Origin: a virus
DNA: 30,604 nt
Virus record (IMG/VR): IMGVR_UViG_3300010354_000370
Span: 1-30,604 of that record
Direction: 5' to 3' (one strand)
Numbering within the stretch: position 1 is the first letter of the stretch; every line of letters begins with the position of its first letter. A model generated the notes under the pieces. It was given only the letters and a program-made list of their open reading frames with translations, was not told where the DNA came from and ran no database searches. Both the position numbers and the translations under genes were made by a program. Below, piece after piece: positions 66 through 30,604 of the stretch.

Positions 66-293
66 ATGACAGTAAATGCATCAAAAGATTGGGTACAACA
101 ATTATATGTTAGGGAATTCGGACCTAAACTACAACCAAACGAATTCTACTATGATAACCAAGGTAGAATGGTTATGACCGAAGATTATCATATAAGAAGA
201 GGTAAGTGTTGTGGAAGTAGGTGTTTACATTGCCCTTATGAACCTCAATACGAAAGAGGAAATCAAAACCTTAAAGAATCCTTACGAAAGTAG
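66..293 (+). CDS. DUF5522-like small cysteine protein
   Basis: This 75-residue protein has a central FYYDNQGRMVMTEDYHIRRG stretch followed by CCGSRCLHCPY. That arrangement (tyrosine-rich strand, a (V/F)xTExYHxxRG segment, then CCxxxCxHCPY) matches the DUF5522 family as I remember it: small host proteins common in Bacteroidota with no established function. The four clustered cysteines and the histidine look able to bind a metal ion or Fe-S cluster; that is inference. It starts three bases after the previous stop and lies 46 nt before the gp25 start, so it is part of the late structural transcript. It has no secretion signal and no membrane segment. It may be a captured host gene or an assembly or regulatory accessory protein. 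Confidence 0.75.
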   Translation: MTVNASKDWVQQLYVREFGPKLQPNEFYYDNQGRMVMTEDYHIRRGKCCGSRCLHCPYEPQYERGNQNLKESLRK

Positions 294-327
294 GGATTTT
301 TTATTTATACAAAAATTACTAATACTA

Positions 328-337
328 TATTTATTTA
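328..337 (+). promoter_or_regulatory. TATTTATTTA motif before gp25-like gene
   Basis: The motif TATTTATTTA begins 12 nt before the ATG at 340, in an AT-rich gap. A similar TTATTTATAC lies at 301-310. It resembles the TATTTATA(A) motif found before several other genes here. It could be a late promoter or an AT-rich leader element; the base composition makes chance occurrence possible. Confidence 0.3.
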
Positions 338-339
338 AT

Positions 340-963
340 ATGGCTCAACAAGTGTCTACATATGGAATACAATTTCCATTTATTGAAAGTGTTACTGGAA
401 CTTATTTTGGTTTATCTTATCAAACAAAAGATGAAATAAGAGGTAATCTTTTACATTTACTATTAACACAAAAAGGTACAAGATATTATGACCCTGATTT
501 TGGTACCGATATATATAAATTTATTTTTGATCCACTTGACGGTGAAACATTTGAAAGGATTAAAGAAGAAGTGCAAGTACAAGTAGAAAAATACATACCT
601 AATTTACGAATAACAGATATTAAGGTAGAACCATACACAGAAGAAGAAACAGACAATCAAGACATTACAAGAGAATTTTTTAACCCATCTGAATTAGTTG
701 ATAAAAATATAATTAGAAAACAGATTGCCACTGATTTTGCACCAACAACTGAAAATATTGTATTACCTTTTAGTGGTGAAGTCGTATATGATTATGTAAT
801 TGATGAGTTTGATAATACAGAAGATGAAACAGACGGTGCGGTTAATGACGTATTTAGAATACCTGGTCCTAATACTATCGATTATACTGCAAAATTAACT
901 ATAATTTATGTTGATGACAGTAGTCCTTTTGGATCTAAAGAATTTGTAATAATTAATATTTAA
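340..963 (+). CDS. Baseplate wedge subunit, gp25/GPW family
   Basis: This 207-residue protein carries the GPW_gp25 fold signature: a helical NLLHLLLTQKGTRYYDPDFG segment (about residues 37-56), then a short DxYKFIFDP stretch and a helix ending in LRITDIKVEP. T4 gp25 is about 132 residues, so roughly 75 residues are additional. They form an acidic C-terminal region with a final beta-rich segment (FRIPGPNTIDYTAKLTIIYV). In T4-like baseplates gp25 sits at the wedge core, contacts the gp6/gp7 bundle and helps prime sheath assembly. The ATG at 340 is preferred because an upstream in-frame ATG at 211 would add 43 residues unlike the family and overlap the preceding gene. The next gene starts 4 nt after its stop, which supports joint transcription. 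Confidence 0.85.
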   Translation: MAQQVSTYGIQFPFIESVTGTYFGLSYQTKDEIRGNLLHLLLTQKGTRYYDPDFGTDIYKFIFDPLDGETFERIKEEVQVQVEKYIPNLRITDIKVEPYTEEETDNQDITREFFNPSELVDKNIIRKQIATDFAPTTENIVLPFSGEVVYDYVIDEFDNTEDETDGAVNDVFRIPGPNTIDYTAKLTIIYVDDSSPFGSKEFVIINI

Positions 964-967
964 TAAT

Positions 968-2806
968 ATGGCAGAAAAAAAATTATCATATACAGAAAGA
1001 GATTTTGTTGGTTTAAGACAAGAGTTAATAAATTTTACTCAAAAATATTATCCCGATTTAGTACAAAATTTTAATGATGCGTCCGTGTTTTCAGTTTTAA
1101 TGGACTTAAATGCTGCAATCGCTGATAACTTACATTTTCATATTGATAGGACGGCACAAGAAACGGTTTTACAATATGCACAACAAAAATCGTCTATTTA
1201 TAATATTGCTAGAACTTATGGGTTAAAGATACCGGGTTATAGACCTTCAGTAGCAATCGTTGATTTTTCAATAACTGTACCTCCTTTTGGTGATTCAGAA
1301 GATATAAGGTATTTAGGTATTATAAGAGCAGGATCTCAATTTTTAGGTGGGGGAACTACCTTTGAAAATTTAAATGACATTGATTTTTCAACTCAATATG
1401 ACCAACAAGGAAACGTTAATAGAACAAAGATACCAACATTTGATTCAAATAATAATATTTTAAATTACGTTATAACCAAAAGAGAAGTTGTTGTAAACGG
1501 AACAACTAAAGTTTTCAAAAAACCAGTAAGAAATACTGACGTAGTGCCTTTCTTTAATTTCTTCCTACCCGAAAAAAACATATTAGGAGTTACAGGTATA
1601 ATACAAAAAGATGGAACATCATACCAATCAGTACCAACATTTGCTGAGTTTCAATCATCGCCAGATAAATGGTACGAGGTTGACGCATTAGCTGAAGACT
1701 TAGTATTTGTTGAAGACACTACAAAACCTGTTGATAATTTTGGAGTTAAACCTGGTAAATATATAAAGACACAAAATAGATTTATAACTGAATATACAGC
1801 AGAAGGATTTTTAAAAGTACAGTTTGGTGCAGGAACAACAACACCTGAAGAACAATTAAAAGAATTTACTAGAACAGGAACAAAACTTAGGTTACAAGAT
1901 TATCAAAATAATATTGGTCTTGGTCTTACAGTAAAACCTAACACTACCTTATTTGTACAATATAGAGTTGGGGGTGGTTCTGGTAGTAATATAGGTACAG
2001 GAGCAATAAATCAAGTAGGTACTATAAATTTTTCTGTTAATGGACCTAATGACCAAACAAATAGAAATGTAATTCAATCTTTAAGGTTAAATAATGTAAC
2101 CGCAGCAATTGGAGGATCAAACCCGCCAACAACAGAAGAAGTTAGAAATATGGTATCATTTAATTTTGCGGCACAAAAAAGAGCTGTAACAATAAATGAT
2201 TATAAGTCTTTAATTGATACAATGCCAGGTAGATTTGGTGCTCCTGCTAAGGTATCTATTACTGAAAACAATAATAAAATATTAGTTCAGATATTATCTT
2301 ATGACGATTCAGGTAAGTTAACCCAAATAACCTCAAACAATCTAAAAAGTAACTTGGCAAACTATCTATCTAGATATAGAATGGTTAATGATTACATATC
2401 TATTGATAACGCAAAAGTGATTGATTTAGAATTTGAAGTATCGGTTGTTATTGAATCAGATAGAAACCAAGGACAGTTAGTAACAGAAATAATTTCAAAC
2501 ATATCTAATTATATGAATCCGGCTAATAGGGATTTAGGTCAAGGTGTTAATGTTTCAGAAATTAAAAAAACAATACAGAATTTGACGGGAGTTTTAACTA
2601 TTGCTGATTTAAAAGTTTTTAATAAAGTAGGTGGTAAATATTCTTCTTCTGAAACTTCACAAAGATATAAAGACCCGGCAACAAAAGAAATACAATTAAT
2701 TGACGATAATATATTTGCAGAACCCGACCAAATATATCAAGTTAGGTTTGATAACATAGATATTAAGGTTAGAACCAAAAATTACAAAACGGTTGATTTC
2801 TCATAA
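968..2806 (+). CDS. Baseplate wedge protein, gp6 / J-like
   Basis: This 612-residue protein is close in length to T4 gp6 (about 660). Its N-terminus reads LSYTERDFVGLRQELINFTQ, followed by DASVFSVLMDLNAAIADNLHFHIDRTAQE. This is the typical start of gp6-like wedge proteins, which pair with gp25 and clamp neighbouring wedges into a ring. A central beta region (about 230-330) is followed by a baseplate-J-like part containing AAQKRAVTINDYKSLIDTMPG (about 400-420) and a C-terminal domain with a repeated strand-helix pattern. It follows gp25 after 4 nt, the same order as in T4-like phages. Role: inner baseplate ring. A 76-nt gap follows the gene, the largest spacing so far, which suggests a new transcription or translation signal there. 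Confidence 0.85.
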   Translation: MAEKKLSYTERDFVGLRQELINFTQKYYPDLVQNFNDASVFSVLMDLNAAIADNLHFHIDRTAQETVLQYAQQKSSIYNIARTYGLKIPGYRPSVAIVDFSITVPPFGDSEDIRYLGIIRAGSQFLGGGTTFENLNDIDFSTQYDQQGNVNRTKIPTFDSNNNILNYVITKREVVVNGTTKVFKKPVRNTDVVPFFNFFLPEKNILGVTGIIQKDGTSYQSVPTFAEFQSSPDKWYEVDALAEDLVFVEDTTKPVDNFGVKPGKYIKTQNRFITEYTAEGFLKVQFGAGTTTPEEQLKEFTRTGTKLRLQDYQNNIGLGLTVKPNTTLFVQYRVGGGSGSNIGTGAINQVGTINFSVNGPNDQTNRNVIQSLRLNNVTAAIGGSNPPTTEEVRNMVSFNFAAQKRAVTINDYKSLIDTMPGRFGAPAKVSITENNNKILVQILSYDDSGKLTQITSNNLKSNLANYLSRYRMVNDYISIDNAKVIDLEFEVSVVIESDRNQGQLVTEIISNISNYMNPANRDLGQGVNVSEIKKTIQNLTGVLTIADLKVFNKVGGKYSSSETSQRYKDPATKEIQLIDDNIFAEPDQIYQVRFDNIDIKVRTKNYKTVDFS

Positions 2807-12561: not shown

Positions 12562-15512
12562 TGGCTAAAAAAAAATATTTTTACCCACCCGCACCTCCAG
12601 TAGGTTCAGAAACATTTTCTGACGATCTTGTTGGTCTGCAGTTAGTTAATGGTGGTGGTTTAACAAATGCTAATTTTGAATTTACAAATAACGTAAAAGA
12701 TAAGGCAAATAGAGGTTTTGATACCGGTGTGTTTTCTAACCCTCTAAATTTAGAGTCCCTTAATGTTAAAGATATTGAAGAAACAAAAAGTTTAATACAA
12801 AAAAACTTTAAAATTTATCCGAACTTCGATTTATCACAATTAACAAGTTTTTGTACTTATGGTTCTTTACAAAAAAGAATTTCTGCTTCTGTAATCGGTA
12901 TAATTAATAAATTTCCAGGTGCTATTTTTGCTAATGAATTTATTTTTGGTTCTGTTACCGCAGAAACCGCAACAAACGCATTATACGATCCCGTTGAGGA
13001 CATAACAAATTTTGATATAGACACAACACAGTTTAGAAATCCTTTAAATATAGATTTTACAACTAATGCAGCAAGAACACTTGAAACATCCCCATTACCA
13101 CTTTCAAAGTATAGGAATTTAACCGATAATTATTACGACTACGCAATATACACAGGAGATTTTACTGAAGAGTATAAAATGGTGACCTTTATACCTACAA
13201 CACAATTAAAAGGAGAGTTTTTAAATATAACAGTTAAAGGAAATCCTTTTTCAGGACAATCCGCAACAACAAAAACAATTATAATAAAACCAAACAGAGA
13301 AACTGTTGAAAACATATTTAACACCGAGTTTGATGAGGTTGAAAAATTTCTTTTAAATAGAAATACGTTTCCTCAATATACCGCAAAATTTAAATATTCA
13401 GAAACAGGTGGAGATGGTATTGTAAAAGATTTTACAAAAAATGTTACATGGCCATTAATTGATACTTGGAATATTGATATCAGTACTGATAACTTTAAAA
13501 ACTATTTAAAAAATTTAAGTGAAATATCTAAAATATTAGACACACAAAAAACAAATTTAATTTCTAGATTTTTAACAACAAACGCCTTTAAAGAATTTGA
13601 TACTTCAGATAAAAAAATGGAAAAACTTTTACAAATTTATGGTAGAAGTTTTGATGAAGTAAAAAAGTTTGTTGATTCATTATCACACATGACTTCTGTT
13701 AATTATATTGTTGGTAATGATATTCCATCACAACTTTTAACAAATTTAGCACAAACATTAGGTATTAATTCAGATATATCACCAATAACAAACGAAGGGT
13801 TTTTAAATTCTGTATTTGACACATCAAATAAAAACATATATGGAGGTAAAAGTAAAGACGACACCCCTACTGAATTAAATTATCAATATTTTAGAAATGT
13901 TATTTTAAATTCGGCATACATGTTTAAATCTAAAGGTACTAGACAATCTTTAGAATACATAATGCGTTTTATAGGTGCTCCCGAAGCGTTAGTTGAATTT
14001 AATGAAATTATATATTTGGCCGATTCTAAAATACCAATGGATGAGTTTGAGGAAAAATACGTTAACATTTCAGGAGGTACTATTTTTAAACAGACACCAA
14101 CATTAGACCGAAATAATACTTTCTCAATTCAAGGAGTTATTTATTCAGGTTTTACATCTGAAGGTGTTATTAATATAAATGAATTAACAAGAAAAGATTA
14201 CGGATTAGATGATAAAGGATTTCCTATAAGTCCTAGAATTACTAATAATAACTTTTTTCAAAAAGGTGCAGGTTGGTTTGAAAAAAGTCCAAAACATAGA
14301 TCAATAGAAGTTATAGATGAAAACAATTCTTCTTTTGTTCCTACTAACCTATCATTAAAAACAAAATTACAACCATTTACTTTTGGTCAAGAATATATGG
14401 ATAGGTTTAGAAAATTTGATAATATGCCTGAAATGGGATTCACCCTAACCAAAATAAATGATAATAAAAAATCTTGGGCAGTAACTGAAACAGGAAAAAG
14501 AATAAGTAGAGAAAACTTTAACGGAGTTAATTATAATGTTAGTGACGACAAACTAATCATAAATTCAAAAAACATTGAATTATATGCGAATGTTGGTCAA
14601 GGTATAACATACGACATTTGGGAGTTATCTGTAAAGTATGGGTACCCAATACCTAATTCGGCTTTAACGGCACCTTACCCAACACCAGGTAATATAGATT
14701 GGACAACTATAAACCCAAAACCAAGGGAAAAAACATTTTTTGAATTCGCACAATCTTTTTATAATAATTTTATAAACGTAAGAAATAGATTAACAATACA
14801 TGACGGTAAAACAGGCGGATATCCAACTCTACAATCTGTTTTTTGGAGGTATCTACAGTCTGAAGAAACTGTAGGGATACCAACAAATAAGTTTACTTAT
14901 CAAAAATTAATAGACTACACATTAGGCCTTGGTGATTATTGGCAAAGATTATTAGAACAAGTAGTACCAGCAACAACTCTTTGGTTAACAGGACAAAAGA
15001 TAGACAACTCAATTTTTCATAGACAAAAATTTGTTTGGAGAAGACAAAGAGGGTGTGTATTTATACCTGTTGAATGTAGACCATGTACGTATAACGGACA
15101 ACCATTTGCTTATGATTGTATTGATCAAACATTAAAATGCACGTTACCAACAGGATCACCGTCTAGTATATTAGGAAATATTTTAAATAAAGTTTTAACA
15201 TCGAGTGGATACACACAATCACAATGTGATTTAAATAGTATTATATCTACTTGGTACGTTGACTGTAGGTTAGATAATGACATATTAGTACAAGAATCTT
15301 TCTATATTGGTTATGGATATAATGATTACCCTAACAGTACTCAAGTAATAAACGCAATAAATGACAAACTTCAAAATCTTTATAATTTTGGATTAAATTA
15401 CTTTTTTGCCGGTAATACTTTAACAGTTAGTAATAGTACTTGTTATGATGACTTCACAAATAAAACTTTATACTTAAATATAGGTATAAACATACAAATA
15501 AATTGTAGCTAA
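12561..15512 (+). CDS. Large baseplate protein with tail protein I-like core
   Basis: A 983-residue protein. Residues about 320-475 hold a mainly helical region with FLTTNAFKEFDTSDKKMEKL, then YFRNVILNSAYMFKSKGTRQ SLEYIMRFIGAPEAL. The RxxLLNSxxxxxxKGTRxSxEYxxRxxG pattern is what I recall from P2 tail protein I-type proteins, which connect the wedge to fibres. A second conserved-looking region (about 790-842) reads LLEQVVPATTLWLTGQKIDN, then HRQKFVWRRQRGC with Cys-rich continuation. In simple contractile tails the I protein occupies the place of T4 gp7, so this may be the functional gp7 counterpart; that is inference. Its N-terminal 300 residues and C-terminal 140 residues are extra to a P2-like I protein. 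It has one-base overlaps with both neighbours. Confidence 0.6.
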   Translation: MAKKKYFYPPAPPVGSETFSDDLVGLQLVNGGGLTNANFEFTNNVKDKANRGFDTGVFSNPLNLESLNVKDIEETKSLIQKNFKIYPNFDLSQLTSFCTYGSLQKRISASVIGIINKFPGAIFANEFIFGSVTAETATNALYDPVEDITNFDIDTTQFRNPLNIDFTTNAARTLETSPLPLSKYRNLTDNYYDYAIYTGDFTEEYKMVTFIPTTQLKGEFLNITVKGNPFSGQSATTKTIIIKPNRETVENIFNTEFDEVEKFLLNRNTFPQYTAKFKYSETGGDGIVKDFTKNVTWPLIDTWNIDISTDNFKNYLKNLSEISKILDTQKTNLISRFLTTNAFKEFDTSDKKMEKLLQIYGRSFDEVKKFVDSLSHMTSVNYIVGNDIPSQLLTNLAQTLGINSDISPITNEGFLNSVFDTSNKNIYGGKSKDDTPTELNYQYFRNVILNSAYMFKSKGTRQSLEYIMRFIGAPEALVEFNEIIYLADSKIPMDEFEEKYVNISGGTIFKQTPTLDRNNTFSIQGVIYSGFTSEGVININELTRKDYGLDDKGFPISPRITNNNFFQKGAGWFEKSPKHRSIEVIDENNSSFVPTNLSLKTKLQPFTFGQEYMDRFRKFDNMPEMGFTLTKINDNKKSWAVTETGKRISRENFNGVNYNVSDDKLIINSKNIELYANVGQGITYDIWELSVKYGYPIPNSALTAPYPTPGNIDWTTINPKPREKTFFEFAQSFYNNFINVRNRLTIHDGKTGGYPTLQSVFWRYLQSEETVGIPTNKFTYQKLIDYTLGLGDYWQRLLEQVVPATTLWLTGQKIDNSIFHRQKFVWRRQRGCVFIPVECRPCTYNGQPFAYDCIDQTLKCTLPTGSPSSILGNILNKVLTSSGYTQSQCDLNSIISTWYVDCRLDNDILVQESFYIGYGYNDYPNSTQVINAINDKLQNLYNFGLNYFFAGNTLTVSNSTCYDDFTNKTLYLNIGINIQINCS
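14848..14881 (+). other. Hairpin inside the tail protein I-like gene
   Basis: An inverted repeat pairs 14848-14859 (GGTATCTACAGT) with 14868-14881 (ACTGTAGGGATACC): 12 base pairs interrupted by a GG bulge, with an 8-nt loop. It lies in coding sequence and has no T-tract after it, so it is not a standard terminator. It may affect mRNA stability or be chance. Confidence 0.35.
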
Positions 15513-17980
15513 TGGCTTGTATTACAGGACTTACTTCGGGTGGTTATTACGAATATGTTGATTGTTGTGGTATTCTACAAACTGGTTTTGCAAACTCCGC
15601 AGAAGAAGTTTGTATTGATATTGCGTATTCAGCAACATCAAAAGGATTAATAAACTTAGATCCACTTAGTACTTGTACTCAAGAATGTGATTTAGGGCCA
15701 CTTGGTTATAGTTTTACCGTTACTGGTGTTTGTTACTCACCTTCAGGGACAACAATAATAACACCAAATTTAGGTACACCACCATATACCATAAATAATG
15801 AAATACCTGGTGGTTTAGGCTCACAAACAGGTTTAGGTCCCTTTACTTTTTCAGGATTAAGTGCTGATACATATGTTTTTAGACTTAATGATTCATCTGG
15901 AGGCATTAATGAAGATATACTTATAAATGTAATAATAAGTGATTGTTTTAGGGCTAAGATTTATGATATTTCAGGAACAACTTGTGGAGAAAATAATGGT
16001 AGTTTTTATGTAAGTGCAACAACAAATGCAAGTCCATACACAATTGCCTTATTTGAAAGTGGTAACTTAATTGACATTATTACCACACCTACACAACCAT
16101 ATCAATTTACAAATTTATCTGCTGGTACGTATTATACAACGTTTATTGATTACGGAAATGTTTCGGCAAACACAGGTACCGCAATAATAACTACAAGTAG
16201 TAGCCCTGATTTTGGGTTTTGGAAAGTTGACACATCTACTTGCGTTATCAATCAAGGTAAATTAGCGGTAACAGGGGTTACAGGTACGGGTCCTTTTTCT
16301 TATGTTTGGACAGATCCTAATGGTAATACTTTAACACAAACAGGTCAATTAGTAACAGGGCTTACACAAGGCACTTATTCTTGTACTGTTACCGATAGTT
16401 TAGGTTGTGAAACCACTAAATATGAAACAATAGGTGCTGCAGATCCTTTAGGTGTTGGTTTAGTTACGTCCGTTAATCCATCTTGTTTTATTAGTGATGG
16501 TACTTTAACCTACACACTTACAGGTGGTACGACACCTTTTTATTTTTCAGCAAATACTGGTCAAGTTGGTTATACATTTTCAAATACTTTTATTATTACA
16601 GGTTTAACTAGTGGATCTTACACCACCACAGTTAGAGACGCTAATTTTTGTGAAATAATATTAAACGGATCTTTAACAACACCAGGAGGGTTTAATGTGG
16701 TAAATACCCAAGTAACTAATTCTAACTGTTCACAAAATAACGGTCAAATAACTATTAACTTACAAGGTGGTTATAACATTTACAATTACTACATTTCAGG
16801 ACAAACAACCGGATTTGTTGATATTTTAACAGGTCCTTTTTTACAATATAACTCACCACTTTTAAGTAATGATACCTATCATGTTGTAATTTCAGCATCA
16901 AGTAGTGATTGTGTGTATACTAATACTGTTACCATAGATTCACAACAAAAGTTTTCAATAACAGCAAACACCACAGGTTCAACATGTGGTTTTAATAATG
17001 GTGTTGTTGAGGTTTTAGTTGGTAGTGGATTTACAGGTGTTTTAGATTATGTTTTAAGTGACGGGCAATCAATTATTGACACACCATATAGTTCATACAC
17101 ATTTACAAATTTATTACCTGGTAATTATACTGTAACAGTTACTGACGTTAGCGGGTGTTCGGTTAGTGAAGTTGTTTCAATACCAACAACGATTGGTTTA
17201 CAAAGTTTAGTAACAACAACAAATTGTACCGGAGGTAATGAAGGTACAGCTTCAGTTTCGATCTACGATGGAACACCACCAATAACATATCAATGGTCTA
17301 GTAATGTACCTAATTTACAATCAGGGTCCACAGTTACGGGGTTAACCGCTGGTACATACACAGTTTTGGTTACTGACAATAATGGTTGCTCAAAAAATCA
17401 TAAATTTGATATAGTTTGTAATGGTAATATTATCAACTCATATGAATTATATACTTTATGTAAAAATAATTTTAACACGACAACAGGGACTCAAAGAGGT
17501 TTTGATGAAATGTTAAATGAAGGATATTTAGATTTAACATCTGGATACACTAATTGTATATTTAATAGTGCTGAATTTATTTGCGAAGTAACAATAAATG
17601 GTAGTGCATTTACTCAAAGTTTTTACACTGCAACAACATTAAATGACGTACCACAAGACACATTATGGCAATCAACAATAGAAGGGATACTTTCAGGAAT
17701 ACCGGAAATTGGTTCATACAATATAGACTTATTAAATAACACTATTCAAATTAGTTCTGTTTGCGACGGAGACTATGACCCACTAGCGGACGCGTCATTT
17801 AGTTTAGGGTTAGAGATAATTTATGATATTGAATGCGAAGGCACACCAACACCTACACCTACCCCGACACCAACACCTACACCTACCCCGACACCAACAC
17901 CTACACCTACCCCGACACCATTACCACCACCGATTAGTTGTGGTATGTCAGGATATACATTTGAAATAAACCAACCATAA
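15512..17980 (+). CDS. SprB-repeat fibre protein with PT-rich tail
   Basis: An 822-residue protein built from about seven Ig-like units of 75-90 residues, between residues 70 and 635. Units begin with a Cys-x-x-N/D-G type motif (CGENNG, CVINQG, CFISDG, CSQNNG, CGFNNG) and end with a GLTxGTYxxxVTDxxGC motif, for example TGLTAGTYTVLVTDNNGC near 608-625. This is the SprB repeat pattern, named for the gliding-motility adhesin of Flavobacterium. After residue 635 comes a non-repeat domain, then a (TP)n linker at about 777-806 and a short CGMSGYTFEINQP end. No signal peptide is visible, consistent with a virion protein rather than a secreted adhesin. Likely role: host-surface-binding fibre or tail decoration. 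It overlaps the previous gene by one base. Confidence 0.75.
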   Translation: MACITGLTSGGYYEYVDCCGILQTGFANSAEEVCIDIAYSATSKGLINLDPLSTCTQECDLGPLGYSFTVTGVCYSPSGTTIITPNLGTPPYTINNEIPGGLGSQTGLGPFTFSGLSADTYVFRLNDSSGGINEDILINVIISDCFRAKIYDISGTTCGENNGSFYVSATTNASPYTIALFESGNLIDIITTPTQPYQFTNLSAGTYYTTFIDYGNVSANTGTAIITTSSSPDFGFWKVDTSTCVINQGKLAVTGVTGTGPFSYVWTDPNGNTLTQTGQLVTGLTQGTYSCTVTDSLGCETTKYETIGAADPLGVGLVTSVNPSCFISDGTLTYTLTGGTTPFYFSANTGQVGYTFSNTFIITGLTSGSYTTTVRDANFCEIILNGSLTTPGGFNVVNTQVTNSNCSQNNGQITINLQGGYNIYNYYISGQTTGFVDILTGPFLQYNSPLLSNDTYHVVISASSSDCVYTNTVTIDSQQKFSITANTTGSTCGFNNGVVEVLVGSGFTGVLDYVLSDGQSIIDTPYSSYTFTNLLPGNYTVTVTDVSGCSVSEVVSIPTTIGLQSLVTTTNCTGGNEGTASVSIYDGTPPITYQWSSNVPNLQSGSTVTGLTAGTYTVLVTDNNGCSKNHKFDIVCNGNIINSYELYTLCKNNFNTTTGTQRGFDEMLNEGYLDLTSGYTNCIFNSAEFICEVTINGSAFTQSFYTATTLNDVPQDTLWQSTIEGILSGIPEIGSYNIDLLNNTIQISSVCDGDYDPLADASFSLGLEIIYDIECEGTPTPTPTPTPTPTPTPTPTPTPTPTPLPPPISCGMSGYTFEINQP
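17843..17920 (+). repeat. Tandem 24-bp repeat encoding a Pro-Thr linker
   Basis: Three identical 24-bp copies (17843-17866, 17867-17890, 17891-17914) and a 6-bp partial copy encode Thr-Pro dipeptides. The tract is much richer in C than the surrounding AT-rich DNA. Near-perfect DNA identity, not just protein identity, points to recent expansion by slippage or unequal recombination. A closely related tract occurs at 22199-22264. Confidence 0.9.
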
Positions 17981-20531: not shown

Positions 20532-20972
20532 ATGATAATAGAAATAACAGGAGTTACTAGCGGTCAATCACCATATGATGTATTTTTATGTAATACAGGT
20601 GGGACATCATGTTTTTTTGTTTCAGGAAATACCAATATACCCCCATCTATTTTAATTGACTCTGAAAATTATTTTCCTGGTGAAGAGGATCTTTTACTTA
20701 GAGTTATTGATACTAATGGTTGTGTGTTTGATGAAATACAAGATTGTTCATCAGGATCTACTGGTACGTGTATTTGTAATGAATACGAAGTAAAATGGGG
20801 TCATCCGGGTATTATTAGTTTTAGTTATGACCCATGTTGTCCTAGCGGGACAACATTAACAACCACCGTTAGTTACCCAACAGGATTTTTCTTTTCATCT
20901 TCAACCAACCCAAGTATTATTTCTGGATTTGGAGGAATAATAACAGAAATAGGTGATTTGTGTCCTTGTTAA
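20532..20972 (+). CDS. Mini-Ig protein 2 with Cys-rich C-terminal extension
   Basis: A 146-residue protein. Residues 1-80 form the mini-Ig domain: ITGVTSGQSPYDVFLCNTGG, TSCFFV, then DLLLRVIDTNGCVFDEIQDC. Residues 80-146 add a second part with many cysteines (CICNEYEVKWGHPG, YDPCCPSG, DLCPC at the end). It is a paralogue of the genes at 20230 and 23275. The stop codon shares the TTAA at 20969-20972 with the stop of the reverse-strand glycosyltransferase gene, so the two converge with a 4-nt overlap. Probable virion surface protein; exact partner unknown. Confidence 0.55.
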   Translation: MIIEITGVTSGQSPYDVFLCNTGGTSCFFVSGNTNIPPSILIDSENYFPGEEDLLLRVIDTNGCVFDEIQDCSSGSTGTCICNEYEVKWGHPGIISFSYDPCCPSGTTLTTTVSYPTGFFFSSSTNPSIISGFGGIITEIGDLCPC

Positions 20973-21559
20973 GAAAGAACTATTAGTTTATTTTTCTCTA
21001 TTAAACTTTTTATGTAGTTTGACTCCCAAATGTCGTCATGCTCTTTTGGTTTTTTAAATTTCATATCAACCCAATAATGATGTTTACCACTCCTTTCTTT
21101 TGAAAAACTATCAAAACCAATAATATGTAATGAGTCGTATACATTTTCTAATAACCAAGTAATGACTAATACTCCTGAAGAAGGTAATAAATTTGATTTA
21201 TCGGGTAAATTACTTTCAGATTGTATTCTTTGTCTTAAATTATTATAATAACTTAATGGTATTCTCCATAATATTTTAGGCGTATATGATGGTTTACCGT
21301 TTTCTCCATGTGTATAAATTACTTTGTCTGGTCTAACAAAATCGTCAATAGGTAAAACACCCCTACCAAAGGTTGACCATATTGTTGTTTTTCTTCCTGT
21401 GTAATCTTCAAATCCGGATATCTTACATTGGTTAAATCTTAAAACCTCATCAAAAGAATCAATAATATGCCCTTTTTTTTCAAACATAACCGATGGACCA
21501 TTCCCAACCAAAATACAACTTTTATTTTTATCTAAATTAAAAGGATTTAGAATATTCAT
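20969..21559 (-). CDS. GT29 (sialyltransferase-family) glycosyltransferase
   Basis: A 196-residue protein with the three hallmark sialylmotif regions of family GT29. Residues 15-43 match sialylmotif L (CILVGNGPSVM, then IDSFDEVLRFN). Residues 124-150 resemble motif S (LLPSSGVLVITWLLEN, then HIIGFD). Residues 174-179 (HDDIWE) fit the HxxxxE pattern of motif VS. The DYTGRKTTIWSTFGRG segment (52-67) also fits. GT29 enzymes use CMP-activated nonulosonic or related sugars as donor; the acceptor here is unknown. It lacks a signal peptide and membrane anchor, so it is a cytoplasmic enzyme. It is the only reverse-strand gene in the window, sitting inside the fibre module between a mini-Ig gene and a Pro-Thr gene. 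It may glycosylate virion fibres or host surface precursors. Length is short for eukaryotic GT29 (about 300) but fits compact phage or bacterial versions. Confidence 0.75.
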   Translation of the reverse strand: MNILNPFNLDKNKSCILVGNGPSVMFEKKGHIIDSFDEVLRFNQCKISGFEDYTGRKTTIWSTFGRGVLPIDDFVRPDKVIYTHGENGKPSYTPKILWRIPLSYYNNLRQRIQSESNLPDKSNLLPSSGVLVITWLLENVYDSLHIIGFDSFSKERSGKHHYWVDMKFKKPKEHDDIWESNYIKSLIEKNKLIVLS

Positions 21560-21640: not shown

Positions 21641-23257
21641 ATGGCGGACATAATATTAAGTAGTTGTTGTTATAATCAAATAGTATATAGTGCATCAAGT
21701 TGGTTACATAGTGTTGCTTATTTAAGTTCATACGAAATTACTGGAGACACCAATATAATTGATGGGTGTTATACTATTGTTACGGGAGTTACTGCTTTAG
21801 GTTCGTTTAGTTTTGATGGTACCGCAACATCTATTATTGACTGTAACGATCCACCTTGTAGTGGGTACTGTTGTACTGAAGATGTTTGTGTTGATATACC
21901 AATAGATTCGTTTAGTGGTTACAATGGTACTTACTCATTGGTAGGTAGTTATAATGCTAAACCATATTGGACAGGAGGTACTAATGTTGGTTATATTTTT
22001 TACGACACAAATAGATGGTGTATAGGTGATGGATTAGGAGGAACTGTTTTCTTTTTTGGGTCTTCCCCAACAGATAGTGTTTGTCCGGACTTTAGTTCAA
22101 GTTTTTACTATGAAGGAACGTGTCTACCAACACCAACCCCAACACCTGACCCGTGCAGTGTTTTAGATTTTGATGTTTTATTAGAATGTGAAATTCCGAT
22201 ACCAACACCCACCCCTACTCCGACACCAACACCTACCCCTACTCCGACACCAACACCAACACCGGACGTATGTAGTGCGTTTACGGTTAATATTAGTAGT
22301 ACTGAGGTAATCCCAACACCTACTCCGACACCTACTCCGACACCTACCCCGACACCAACACCAATTATAGTACCATCTGCAAATACGGTGACATTTGTTA
22401 TTGATAGTGGTAACTTTATTTGTTCAAGTGTTAAAGAACTTGTTGATTGCGAAACTTCAGAAAAATACTACATTTTAGATCCAATCACATATAGTGGTTC
22501 AGGAGTAACAACAGGAACAACTTTCTTAGCAATTCTTAATGATTTTAATTCTGATCAAATTCAATGTGTTACATACACTCAAAATCTATTAAACACGTCA
22601 CCTAATAGAATTATAAAAGATATATTAACCGTTTATAGTGGTGGATGTGAGGAATGTGTTGTGCCTTTGGTTGACCCATGTTCTGCATTTACCGTATCAA
22701 TATCAGCAACCGAAGTTATGCCAACACCAATTACATACCCATCAGGAACAAGTTTTGTATTTACGTCTTGTACAAGTAATTCAATGATTGTTCAAACAGC
22801 GTACCCACCAACAAATATTGTTGATTTTTGTGTATTACAAACACCTTCAGGTCAATGTTACACTTATATTGGTAATTTTGTAAATTACGTACCACCTTCA
22901 GGATTTGTTGTTACAAATCAAGATGTGTTTACCGCAACCACAACCGCAACAACATACACAACTTGTTTAGAGTGTTTAACACCACAACCAATAAGTTTAG
23001 GTTACACGTTATGGAGAGGTAAGGCAGAATATTCATTAGCATGTCCTGTTTGTGAATTAACAAATTATGGGGTTCCTTACAGTTGGTACACCTCTTCTGC
23101 AACCACAACAATAGAAACTGGTGTGTATGTTTATGAAGATTCTTCATTAACAATACCACTTTATGTTGACTATATTGAATACAATACTAAAATATATTCT
23201 GTAGACCAAAATGGAAAATTGACAGAATACTGTAATGTTAACGGTAATTGTACATAA
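21641..23257 (+). CDS. Pro-Thr-repeat, Cys-rich fibre protein
   Basis: A 538-residue protein. The N-terminal 160 residues are Cys- and Tyr-rich ([24 protein letters not shown]). Three Pro-Thr linkers follow at about 161-170, 185-208 and 224-243. The segment [12 protein letters not shown] (from 170), [15 protein letters not shown] (from 209) and [15 protein letters not shown] (from 345) is an internal repeat of about 15-20 residues, each linked to PTP; the last is followed by PTPI rather than a long tract. Residues 250-345 and 365-538 are beta-rich with paired cysteines (CLECL, CPVCE). No signal peptide. The organisation suggests bead-like domains on extended linkers, as in fibre tips. Start is supported by the 81-nt divergent gap. 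Confidence 0.55.
22130..22264 (+). repeat. Pro-Thr DNA repeat tract (imperfect 24-bp units)
   Basis: Two neighbouring 24-bp units (22199-22222, with two differences, and 22223-22246) and shorter flanking copies encode Thr-Pro dipeptides. The unit is very close to that at 17843-17920 in another gene. The two tracts could recombine and would delete or duplicate about 4.3 kb, including the glycosyltransferase. Confidence 0.8.
22316..22363 (+). repeat. 12-bp tandem repeat encoding a Pro-Thr linker
   Basis: Four 12-bp units (22316-22327, 22328-22339, 22340-22351, 22352-22363): the first two are identical (ACACCTACTCCG), the third differs by one base and the fourth is diverged. It encodes the third Thr-Pro linker of the gene and is a related but separate expansion from the 24-bp tract upstream. 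Confidence 0.8.
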
Positions 23258-27958: not shown

Positions 27959-28561
27959 ATGGCTAAAACAGATTTTAAAAACTCACCAAAAGTGTTGGGT
28001 TTAGACATTTCAACAAAAACAATTGGTTGGAGTTTATTTGATATTAAATCACAAGAATTATTAGAGTTAACACATTTTTCACCAGTTATAAAACCAAAAG
28101 TTGATGACAAAATACAGGAATTATTATTAAAAGTTAAAGGGTTTGAAGAAAAACTTGAAGGGTACGTTAATTTAGGAATAACTAATGTAATAATAGAAGA
28201 ACCATTATTAAATTCAAATAACGTTTGGACTGTAGGAACATTATTACGTTATAACTCTATGATTACTAAGTCAATATATGATATTTTAGGTATTGTACCA
28301 TCATATATTTCAACATACAATTCAAGAAAATATGCTTGGTCTGACCTAACCCAACAAAACGATAAAGGAAAACACGTATTATTTGGTGGTTTACCTAAAG
28401 ACGTTGATAAAAAAGAATTGATATGGAAAAGGGTTTCTGAAAAAGAACCACAAATTAAATGGTTATATACAAAAAATAACACTCTTAAAAAAGAGTGTTA
28501 TGACATGGCCGATTCTTATACATGTGTTCTTGGTTATATGAAAGAACAAAAAATTTGGTAA
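27959..28561 (+). CDS. RuvC-like Holliday junction resolvase
   Basis: A 200-residue RNase H-fold nuclease. Residues 12-20 (VLGLDISTK) contain the first catalytic Asp (D16). Residues 77-82 (VIIEEP) provide the acidic E80/E81 that follows the strand. Residues 182-185 (DMAD) carry the C-terminal acidic residue(s). The DISTKTIGWSLFD segment is the typical 'D-x-S-x-x-x-x-G-W/Y' start of RuvC-like enzymes. Such enzymes resolve Holliday or branched DNA during phage replication and packaging, a role played by endonuclease VII in T4. It follows the fibre gene after 5 nt, so it may be expressed late and used at packaging. A duplicate of its last 147 nt lies at 30126-30272. Confidence 0.75.
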   Translation: MAKTDFKNSPKVLGLDISTKTIGWSLFDIKSQELLELTHFSPVIKPKVDDKIQELLLKVKGFEEKLEGYVNLGITNVIIEEPLLNSNNVWTVGTLLRYNSMITKSIYDILGIVPSYISTYNSRKYAWSDLTQQNDKGKHVLFGGLPKDVDKKELIWKRVSEKEPQIKWLYTKNNTLKKECYDMADSYTCVLGYMKEQKIW

Positions 28562-28615: not shown

Positions 28616-29119
28616 ATGAAAAATATATTATCATCTTTATCAAAAGAAGAAAAACGAAGAATCTTAGAAATGCATGTAAATGCGTCAAAAAGAAATTATC
28701 TATCCGAATCGGAAATTAACCCATCTAATGTTGAAAAAGTCGGTATTTTTGATATCAAAACTAATGAAAAAGTTGGTGGAATTGATATGAGCAATATTAA
28801 ATATGAAGGTAATCCTGAAAAAAAAGTTTCGGATTATGTTTCTTTTGATTATACTTATGCTGGATCAGATAAAAATAAAGAAAAATCAAGAGGTCAATAT
28901 TTTTGTAAAGATAAAGTAATACAAATATTAAATAAAGTCGAGTATTACCAATTAACACCCAATAACTCTAAATATAATGAAGAACCAAATGCTATAGAAG
29001 TTTCGGATGTTGAGAGTAAAAGATATAAATTAAGCCCACAGGGAGATGAAAAAATGGAAAAATATTGTGTTAATGAATATGCATCCAACAATAAACAATT
29101 AGATAATGATTTATCTTAA
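28616..29119 (+). CDS. Small protein with KRILxxH-type leader
   Basis: A 167-residue lysine-rich protein of unknown function. The N-terminus MKNILSSLSKEEKRRILEMH resembles the partial gene at 30315 (FILTESEKKRILGLH): both have E-K-(R/K)-R-I-L-x-(M/L)-H. Candidate (L/I)-x-E sites occur at ILE (16-18) and LSE (29-31). The body is hydrophilic with short strands (YVSFDYTYAGSD, GQYFCKDKVIQIL) and no recognised domain or membrane segment. The gene follows the end of the resolvase, exactly as the 30315 gene follows the duplicated resolvase end. It may be an internal head protein or a late accessory protein. Confidence 0.5.
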   Translation: MKNILSSLSKEEKRRILEMHVNASKRNYLSESEINPSNVEKVGIFDIKTNEKVGGIDMSNIKYEGNPEKKVSDYVSFDYTYAGSDKNKEKSRGQYFCKDKVIQILNKVEYYQLTPNNSKYNEEPNAIEVSDVESKRYKLSPQGDEKMEKYCVNEYASNNKQLDNDLS

Positions 29120-29134
29120 AAAAAAATTAAAATT

Positions 29135-29191
29135 ATGAAAAGAATTATTAGATTAACAGAATCAGATTTAACAAGAATTGTTAGACGAGTA
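29135..29191 (+). repeat. Repeated 57-nt leader (copy 1)
   Basis: The first 19 codons match 29442-29498 with 54 of 57 bases identical (by hand count); similarity falls away beyond that. Conservation at the DNA level suggests recent duplication or gene conversion of the leader alone. Confidence 0.85.
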
Positions 29192-29422
29192 ATTAATGAA
29201 AATGCCTTAACTGAATCTGAAGAAGAGGCTTTAGTTTCTGATATACAAACTATGGACGAAGAAGATCCTGACCCAAGTTTATTAGACAGATTAGAACAGT
29301 TTGCTGCAAAATTTAAAAAATTACCTAGAAAACTAATTGGTAAAATTAAAAGGTTACAGAAAAAACAACCTAACATGATGAAAAAATTTAAAAATATTAA
29401 CACTAATTGCCCTAAATGGTAA
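29135..29422 (+). CDS. Small protein with LTESDL leader
   Basis: A 95-residue protein beginning MKRIIRLTESDLTRIVRRV, nearly identical to the next gene for 19 codons at the DNA level (3 mismatches in 57 nt). After the leader the sequence is unrelated: an acidic region (ESEEEALVSDIQTMDEEDPD) followed by a highly basic region (KFKKLPRKLIGKIKRLQKKQ). LTE (7-9), INE (20-22) and LTE (25-27) fit the (L/I)-x-E pattern cut by T4-type prohead proteases, which is suggestive only. The basic C-terminus could bind DNA. Function unknown. Confidence 0.55.
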   Translation: MKRIIRLTESDLTRIVRRVINENALTESEEEALVSDIQTMDEEDPDPSLLDRLEQFAAKFKKLPRKLIGKIKRLQKKQPNMMKKFKNINTNCPKW

Positions 29423-29441
29423 TTAATAAAAAAAATAAATC

Positions 29442-29498
29442 ATGAAAAGAATAATTAGATTAACCGAATCAGATTTAACAAGAATTGTTAGACGAGTT
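29442..29498 (+). repeat. Repeated 57-nt leader (copy 2)
   Basis: Second copy of the leader-coding repeat, matching 29135-29191. The changes are at third codon positions within the 57 nt, so the protein leader is unchanged for 19 residues. Confidence 0.85.
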
Positions 29499-30110
29499 CT
29501 TAGAGAACAAAATGAACCAATGCTTCCTAGTCAAACTTTACCTGATCAACAACAAAAAATGGTTGAATTTAATCAGAGGATGCAAGGACAAAAATTAAAT
29601 TTTTATTTAATTGGAGACTCTACTCAACCAGTAATAAGCCAATTTAAGGTTAGTTCTATCCGTTGGGGCGAAAATAAAAATGAAATCTATATTTATGGAT
29701 CAGTTTCCGAAGATACTGATAGTATTGTTGGTGCTTTACTTTTTGGAAGGTCTAAAAACGATAAATCAAAACTTACATATAGATGTCAAGAAAAAGACGT
29801 ATTTATTTTAGATAATCTAAATTTTGGAACAGGTTGGAGAAATATAATTGAAAAATTTGTAGAATCAAAAATGGAGTTTGCGAATGTTTCAAAAAAAGAC
29901 AAAAATATGTTAAAATCAAAAATGACAAGAGATTTAATTAATAAAAACCCAGCACCTTTAGTTGTACCAGGAATTAATGAAAAAACTGGAAAAACATTTC
30001 TCGATGATATTAAAAACATTTTGTGTAGTACTAACAAAATGGAAAGAACAGTACCAAAATCGACAGAATCGGCATCCACAAATAAAGGATTTGATCAAAA
30101 CATGACCTAA
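29442..30110 (+). CDS. Protein with LTESDL leader, unknown body
   Basis: A 222-residue protein whose first 19 residues match the previous gene. Candidate (L/I)-x-E sites: LTE (7-9) and LRE (20-22). The body starts with a Gln/Pro-rich linker (QNEPMLPSQTLPDQQQKMVE) and then shows strands (KLNFYLIGDSTQPVISQFKV, NEIYIYGSVSEDTDSIVGAL) and a basic helical region with MLKSKMTRDLI. No domain recognised. With an N-terminal leader joined to unrelated bodies in neighbouring genes, a shared targeting function is plausible: capsid delivery as in T4 internal proteins, or membrane/host targeting. No signal peptide in the classical sense, as there is no hydrophobic core. Confidence 0.5.
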   Translation: MKRIIRLTESDLTRIVRRVLREQNEPMLPSQTLPDQQQKMVEFNQRMQGQKLNFYLIGDSTQPVISQFKVSSIRWGENKNEIYIYGSVSEDTDSIVGALLFGRSKNDKSKLTYRCQEKDVFILDNLNFGTGWRNIIEKFVESKMEFANVSKKDKNMLKSKMTRDLINKNPAPLVVPGINEKTGKTFLDDIKNILCSTNKMERTVPKSTESASTNKGFDQNMT

Positions 30111-30116
30111 AAATAA

Positions 30117-30272
30117 GATAAAAAAAAACTAATTTGGAAAAAAGTTTCAGATAAAGAACCACAAATTACTTGGCACTACACAAAAAACAACACACTTAAA
30201 AAAGAGTGTTATGGTATGGCCGATTCTTATACTTGTGTTTTGGGTTATATGAAACAAGAAAAGATTTGGTAA
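30117..30272 (+). pseudogene. Fragment of RuvC-like resolvase (duplicated 3' end)
   Basis: An open stretch of 52 codons with no ATG in frame before the conserved part. From 30126 its protein, (K)LIWKKVSDKEPQITWHYTKN and onward to KQEKIW-stop, matches residues 153-200 of the resolvase at 27959-28561. By hand count 123 of 147 bases are identical (about 84%). The D182 equivalent is Gly here, while the D185 equivalent is kept. An in-frame TAA precedes it at 30114-30116. It lacks the first two catalytic acids, so it cannot be an active nuclease alone. It is best read as a decayed gene copy or the remnant of a segmental duplication. A non-canonical start (for example ATT at 30132) is possible but unsupported. 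Confidence 0.75.
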
Positions 30273-30297
30273 ACTCCATTTTTTTAGTTTAGGGGTG

Positions 30298-30306
30298 TAT
30301 TTATAA
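30298..30306 (+). promoter_or_regulatory. TATTTATAA motif before gene at 30315
   Basis: TATTTATAA begins 17 nt before the ATG at 30315, in the 42-nt gap after the resolvase fragment. It matches the motif class seen at 11635, 23263 and 25731. Confidence 0.35.
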
Positions 30307-30314
30307 TAAAAAAG

Positions 30315-30604
30315 ATGAAAAATAATTTTATATTAACCGAATCGGAAAAAAAAAGAATACTTGGTTTACACAACAAGTATATTAACAAACCACAAACTTG
30401 GGTAATCAAAGAATCATTTACTGGAACTGCTGGTGATGGGTATGATGGTGATGTTGCTGCTTGTAAAAAAGATTTACCATATAACGTTGCGGTAAAAACA
30501 GGTCAAGTAAGATCAAGTGCTGAATGGAAAACGTTACGTCAAGAATGGGGTTCTGATGGGTCTATGTCTCAAAATTTAAAAATGAGAGATGAAATGTGTG
30601 ATGG
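30315..30604 (+). CDS. LTESEK-leader protein (3' truncated by window end)
   Basis: An open frame running off the window end, 96 complete codons seen. It starts MKNNFILTESEKKRILGLHN, with LTE at residues 7-9, the same place as in the genes at 29135 and 29442, and the KKRILGLH segment like the gene at 28616. Later sequence (ESFTGTAGDGYDGDVAACKK, QEWGSDGSMSQNLKMRDEMC) contains Cys residues and looks like a small folded domain, but no family is recognised. It is preceded by a TATTTATAA motif. Full length unknown. Confidence 0.55.
   Translation, partial: MKNNFILTESEKKRILGLHNKYINKPQTWVIKESFTGTAGDGYDGDVAACKKDLPYNVAVKTGQVRSSAEWKTLRQEWGSDGSMSQNLKMRDEMCD

Follow-up and report, generated by a model that had tools for sequence, protein, structure and literature searches.

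The small genes that close this viral contig share with many genes of other uncultured large phages short N-terminal leaders, which are most probably cleavable capsid-targeting propeptides. The prohead protease of T4 cuts after (L/I)-x-E, and, as read from the sequences, the leaders stand on unrelated bodies, break off sharply at this motif and are conserved at the level of the protein. The sequences further indicate that the leader classes interchange, that they co-occur with a T4-type head module and protease and that a matching site lies in the capsid protein. The earlier note on this DNA had already proposed such a role, and the N-terminal leaders on unrelated proteins, the presence of an S77 protease and the leader swaps all argue in its favour.

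Four leader genes at the end of the window

The window, that is the whole viral contig of 30,604 bases analysed here, carries four small ORFs on the + strand at its right end (genes 1 to 4, starting at 28616, 29135, 29442 and 30315; Table 1). Related N-termini on otherwise unrelated adjacent genes had been noted before, and this description holds: the ORFs were confirmed and the bodies gave no BLAST match to each other, the similarity being confined to the leaders. Pfam and PHROGs searches with the four proteins returned no credible family. Genes 2 and 3, whose leaders had been called nearly identical, begin with the same 19 residues, MKRIIRLTESDLTRIVRRV, and an (I/L)xE then ends both leaders, whereas genes 1 and 4 open with a second leader type, xxEEKxRILxxH...(L/I)xE. 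The (L/I)-x-E sites are ILE18 and LSE31 in gene 1, LTE9, INE22 and LTE27 in gene 2, LTE9 and LRE22 in gene 3, and LTE9 and IKE33 in gene 4. This bears out the earlier description, by which three genes have LTE at residues 7-9 and both LTESDL genes have a further site at 20-22, and adds that the remaining two leaders also end in the motif, a terminal site being present in all four (LSE31, INE22, LRE22 and IKE33).

Table 1. Leaders, bodies and neighbouring genes in the window
Feature	Position	Strand	Leader sequence	Remark
Baseplate genes gp25 (211-963) and gp6 (968-2806)	211..2806	+		Context
RuvC-like resolvase gene	27959..28561	+		Adjoins the array, outside the leader system; same neighbour in relatives L501 and L502
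Class B leader, gene 1, residues 1-31	28616..28708	+	MKNILSSLSKEEKRRILEMHVNASKRNYLSE	Predicted cut after LSE31
Cargo gene 1 body (167-aa precursor)	28709..29119	+		Family unmatched; low-confidence beta-rich model
Class A leader, gene 2, residues 1-22	29135..29200	+	MKRIIRLTESDLTRIVRRVINE	Predicted cut after INE22
Cargo gene 2 body (95-aa precursor)	29201..29422	+		Acidic then basic; family unmatched
Class A leader, gene 3, residues 1-22	29442..29507	+	MKRIIRLTESDLTRIVRRVLRE	Predicted cut after LRE22
Cargo gene 3 body (222-aa precursor)	29508..30110	+		Family unmatched; 79% identical relative in L502
Class B leader, gene 4, residues 1-33	30315..30413	+	MKNNFILTESEKKRILGLHNKYINKPQTWVIKE	Predicted cut after IKE33
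Cargo gene 4 body	30414..30604	+		Ended by the contig end

By its baseplate genes gp25 and gp6 the window is assigned to a T4-like myophage, and its gp6 is 63.6% identical to that of a 296-kb leader phage (G001). Close relatives keep the array and swap its gene content: L502 is without gene 2 at this place, and another class A gene follows there. Both L501 and L502 retain SLSKEEKNRILEMHxSASKKHYLFE, in which L-x-E is kept and x changes from S to F. In L501 a GIY-YIG-like gene is inserted between a 736-aa structural gene and the RuvC-like gene (L501:3666-4343; one window relative). The window itself further contains a 196-aa ORF on the - strand among + strand structural genes (20969-21559), which by eye resembles sialyltransferase-type glycosyltransferases, and long (TP)n repeats inside tail-region proteins (15512-17980 and 21641-23257).

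Spread and anatomy of the leaders

Class A was searched with a degenerate DNA pattern for IIRLTE(S/T)DLxRI which included no start codon. The pattern occurs in at least 120 stretches of viral contigs as opposed to 2 in 257 Gb of bacterial and archaeal genomes, and patterns for two further classes, B and C, gave 81 and 113 stretches. Among ORFs from random viral loci the leader regexes match 3 of 2449, of which one is a real leader; among shuffled N-termini they match 3 of 11,900. Both the contrast between viral and bacterial counts and this low background show that the leader array is not due to chance. Counted over the distinct matches listed, and with N-terminal placement defined as a motif no more than 12 residues from a start, the leader is N-terminal in 118 of 120 cases in class A, 50 of 50 in class B and 98 of 98 in class C. 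Thus the leader sits at the N-termini of unrelated proteins, as the earlier note had wished to see, and is almost absent from bacterial genomes, while its placement is not without exception, since two of the 120 class A matches (L018 and L104) are internal. In L018 (4171-5835) the motif follows two PG-binding-like repeats within a 554-aa ORF, so that either two genes are fused here or the motif is used differently; in L104, a 171-aa ORF, the leader is preceded by an N-terminal segment, SKSKEQQRFFGMVDAYKKGEMKN..., possibly forming a two-part propeptide.

Both bacterial matches are in Prevotella MAGs (L172:1237-2097, and L171 near 2423). No S77 match was found in these two genomes, and in the family to which one of the MAGs belongs 2 of 201 genomes have a relaxed class A form; the two leader genes look isolated and are possibly remnants of phage genes. 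Together with distant relatives they at most suggest a Bacteroidota host for the leader phages. A tblastn search of isolated phages with the 23-aa leader gave nothing at an E value of 10, which is uninformative for so short a query; no leaders were seen in the isolates Flavobacterium phage immuto and Microcystis phage Mel-JY01, and the leader strings were not found in the literature searched.

Altogether 595 leader ORFs were collected (237 of class A, 83 of class B and 275 of class C), with bodies that fall into 276 families, 182 of them singletons. As in T4-type capsid-targeting sequences, unrelated mature parts thus follow a short N-terminal segment, mostly 22 residues long in class A, mostly 15-16 in class C and about 29 in class B, the last exceeding the usual 10-20. 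In a class A profile built from one protein per body family (156 families), most columns as far as E22 hold about 2-4 bits; the x of I-x-E has 1.3 bits, residue 23 has 0.9 bits and the residues that follow have about 0.2 bits. L7, T8, E9 and L12 are near-invariant. In 99% of the families residue 20 is I, V or L, and 89% have E at residue 22, neither being set by the search pattern, which leaves the residues after 15 free. Conservation thus stops at the Glu of (I/L/V)-x-E. By family, [LI]xE is found in the leader-end window at a frequency of 0.88 in class A (control 0.06), 0.96 in class B (control 0.07) and 0.72 in class C (control 0.14), so that all three classes, like the four window leaders, end in the motif. 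Class C is the least uniform of the three, 28% of its families being without [LI]xE in the tested window. [LI]xD is depleted at the leader end in classes A and B, and rumen-type leaders mostly keep (I/L)xE in spite of a 4-residue insertion of about one helical turn. At the invariant residues synonymous codons vary (TTA, CTT, CTA and TTG for L7, all four for T8), which indicates selection on the peptide.

The most invariant part in all three classes is a helix-start motif, hydrophobic-[T/S]-E-x-[D/E/Q]. In sequence it looks like a helix N-cap, with T/S as N-cap, an acidic residue or Gln at N3 and a hydrophobic residue at N' (and at N4 in classes A and C). AlphaFold models of the products of genes 1 and 3 are of low confidence (mean pLDDT 59.6 for one of the two and 62.8 for the other), and neither gave a significant Foldseek match; they place the leader as a separate helix, at residues 10-29 in gene 1 and 9-24 in gene 3, followed by a low-confidence junction (residues 23-33 in gene 3). 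Of the (L/I)-x-E sites which the earlier note had regarded as cut sites, the second is the main predicted one. We set LTE at 7-9 aside as the main cut, since conservation does not stop before residue 22 and the segment has the features of a helix N-cap. LTE may mainly serve as this cap, though it may also be an extra cut site.

Prohead protease, capsid-protein site and exchange of leaders

The gp21-like protease that the earlier note had suggested looking for, an S77 peptidase of the T4 prohead protease type, is encoded together with gp23 and gp20 by leader phages. It is present in 29 of 40 large leader contigs as compared to 3 of 15 random large viral contigs; among the 20 large class A contigs examined it occurs in 16, which are exactly those that bear gp23, and among the 20 contigs picked by class B or C it occurs in 13. 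A T4-type portal was not found in the 11 leader contigs negative for S77 either, and we read these contigs as fragments missing their head modules, although three of the contigs exceed 200 kb. The 30.6-kb window contains no head genes, and its S77 protease is presumed from relatives. One 269-kb contig (G240, the contig of L277) has two S77 matches more than 200 kb apart.

In G001 the head genes are ordered as in T4, namely terminase, portal, a core-like gene, a class C leader gene, a second core-like gene, gp21, a scaffold-like gene and gp23; its portal gene, gp20 (L148:2873-5965), contains an intein splicing domain. The gp23 proteins of all 16 genomes have INE/A or IYE/A (I-x-E/A) aligned with LTE65/A of T4, the end of the 65-residue propeptide. 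The gene after gp23 has similar bodies behind differing short starts, MDRLNKIIKRVIKE/A, MNIQDIVNKIILE/A, MIEDIIKKVLNE/V and MKSNV...YVNE/S. The I/L-x-E/A maturation site of T4 gp23 and gp24 is thus kept in gp23 and the downstream gene of the leader phages. Different from the leaders, however, gp23 and gp24 of T4 are shell proteins whose propeptides are not interchangeable tags.

It could be argued that the leader is a docking helix which targets proteins to the head but escapes cleavage and remains part of the mature protein. Such a helix would account for the helix-start motif being most invariant in all classes and for the separate helix in the models. We consider this unlikely, as a T4-type cleavage motif marks the precise end of conservation, depletion of Asp is seen where the Glu stands, and the aligned maturation site of gp23 has the same motif.

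The leaders are interchangeable: in 21 body families two or more leader classes occur, and the members become homologous again at the Glu or directly behind it. For example, the junction of leader and homologous cargo reads ...RVINE/NQEEVDRILDKISD in L040 (class A) and MKIIITESQYKFLIE/NQEVVDRILDKISE in L311 (class C), and in another family ...RMIKE/NEQDWIDQSQDM in L047 (class A) and ...RQYLKE/NEDEWIDMSNDM in L233 (class B). In several leader contigs a DHH-phosphoesterase cargo opens with MKIIITESQYKxLIxE, a class C leader; its homologues in the megaphages LR745206.1 and LR756502.1 (634 and 642 kb) start with MISKYNQFINE and MLRKYGQFINE. A DNA pattern for Y-x-(E/Q)-F-(I/L)-x-E has exactly two matches in the whole T4 genome, both in genes starting MKTYQEFIAE, and these fit the literature, according to which IPII and IPIII have identical propeptides (PMC9026906). 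The same T4-type pattern is N-terminal on 16 genes with different bodies in the two megaphages. These encode at least 16 genes with M..(K/R)YxQFIxE leaders and unrelated bodies (L507:5995-7986, L508:5992-8268 and L516-L537), and S77 is matched only weakly in these phages, at 20-23 bits, by ORFs of some 700 aa. A second swap concerns a cargo with the junction INE/DFKTQ, which has MKIIITESQLRKLINGVINE in L280 and MEFREWFRSAETRTINE in the 595-kb phage LR756511.1, where it lies about 6 kb from the S77 protease. Homology to the T4 capsid-targeting sequence (Y-x-x-F-I-x-E) may exist for class C, whose xQYKxLIxE can be aligned with SKYNQFINE of the megaphages and, through it, with TYQEFIAE of T4; classes A and B have in common with the T4 sequence only the hydrophobic/Glu spacing.

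Cargo and the proposed route into the head

The leader regexes match 34 times in G001, which may be complete as one gene match is split across its two ends, and 21 times in G006 (322 kb), some class C matches being loose; this corresponds to about 20-34 putative leader genes per ~300-kb phage. Up to 10 leader genes were found in one locus. Pfam matches are few among the 132 cargo families represented: PG_binding_1 (4), phage lysozyme (2) and, singly, others including Tae4, LysM, a cell-wall hydrolase, GDSL lipase, annexin and DHH. By comparison, 132 non-leader genes of matched length from the same loci match 52 Pfam families, most of them of enzymes that act in metabolism or modify DNA. Housekeeping enzymes are thus scarce in the leader set, and unmatched and cell-wall-directed proteins are frequent. 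Class A proteins of L063, L020, L056 and L107 contain annexin-like repeats (GTDExxI...VYxIKxKxDY), which are unusual in phages; among these there is one Pfam Annexin match.

Most cargo of recognisable function (PG_binding_1, lysozyme, LysM, a Tae4-like amidase and cell-wall hydrolase) is related to peptidoglycan, which suggests a role in the envelope, and we have counted this against capsid targeting, although virion-borne lysins are known in other phages. With an envelope role the leader would be an envelope- or export-targeting peptide, a cationic amphipathic helix that takes lytic enzymes and other proteins to the cell wall. We regard this as very unlikely: the leader is polar and charged and has no hydrophobic core, (L/I)-x-E is not a signal-peptidase site, the DHH phosphoesterase, an ECF-sigma-like body (by eye) and an HNH cargo look cytoplasmic, and the leader swaps with a T4-type capsid-targeting sequence. 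It is highly improbable, too, that the leader mediates interaction with some other phage structure, such as a replication compartment or the tail, and ends in (L/I)-x-E by coincidence. Leader genes do often flank baseplate genes, in the window as well as in relatives, but the more than ten-fold excess of the motif over control in classes A and B and its presence in the gene directly after gp23 are difficult to reconcile with coincidence. Finally, a mobile DNA element of promoter and start spread by recombination, with a peptide devoid of function, would explain the turnover of array content between close relatives and the clustering of leader genes in one locus, but is scarcely credible given that three different leader sequences serve homologous bodies, and is ruled out by the synonymous codon diversity at invariant residues across families.

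We therefore return to cleavable capsid-targeting propeptides, for which T4 provides the precedent. Its internal proteins carry capsid-targeting propeptides of 10-19 residues with affinity for the core, with residues 4 and 7 important for targeting, and residues 8 and 10 for processing; an Asp at residue 10, where the cut is made, blocks processing and leaves targeting unaffected, and the cargo enters the host (PMC9026906). The leaders match these sequences in position, cut motif, depletion of Asp and, mostly, hydrophobic P4 and P3, and on this ground docking and cleavage by S77 are proposed. We infer that, during T4-like head assembly, the N-terminal helix of the precursor would dock onto the prohead core and thereby bring unrelated cargo into the prohead. 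The S77 prohead protease of the gp21 type would cut after the Glu of the leader-terminal (L/I)-x-E, as in capsid-protein maturation, and so free the cargo inside the DNA-filled head, from where it may be ejected along with the DNA when the phage next infects a cell. This ejection, and any action of the cargo in the host, are the most speculative part of this scheme.

The leaders appear to be best filed under the T4 capsid-targeting sequence. Like those of IPI, IPII, IPIII and Alt they are short N-terminal segments, putative propeptides, on unrelated bodies, end in (L/I)-x-E and occur in genomes with a gp21-type protease; most have hydrophobic P4 and P3, class A also P7, and homologous cargo carries either type. 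They differ in being mostly 15-33 rather than 10-19 residues long, in their helix-start motif, in falling into three classes and in the number of regex matches, 21-34 per ~300-kb genome as opposed to a handful in T4. What seems new is that there are three classes, that these interchange and that so many proteins are tagged. In SPN3US and phiKZ, many head proteins, among them inner-body and ejection proteins, are likewise cut after Glu by a gp21-related protease and many are packaged (PMC5694885, PMC9026906). The propeptides of these phages, however, are often longer than 100 residues and share no sequence, the phiKZ cut being at S/A-x-E, whereas the leaders are short, near-identical and end in (L/I)-x-E.

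On balance, we lean towards the broader view that large T4-like phages use three classes of interchangeable capsid addresses to load some 20-35 cargoes per genome, drawn from hundreds of families, so that an arsenal of injected proteins becomes readable from sequence. Proteins injected by phages are usually found only by virion proteomics. A conserved short leader with a predictable cut instead lists candidate injected proteins of uncultured large phages, 276 families of them, most without a known domain. Since the packaged cargo of T4 includes an anti-restriction protein and an ADP-ribosyltransferase, proteins for counter-defence and takeover of the host should be frequent in such lists. The tag could thus serve to predict the phage proteins that travel in the virion and probably enter bacteria by injection, and the leaders may provide new tags for loading proteins into phage heads.
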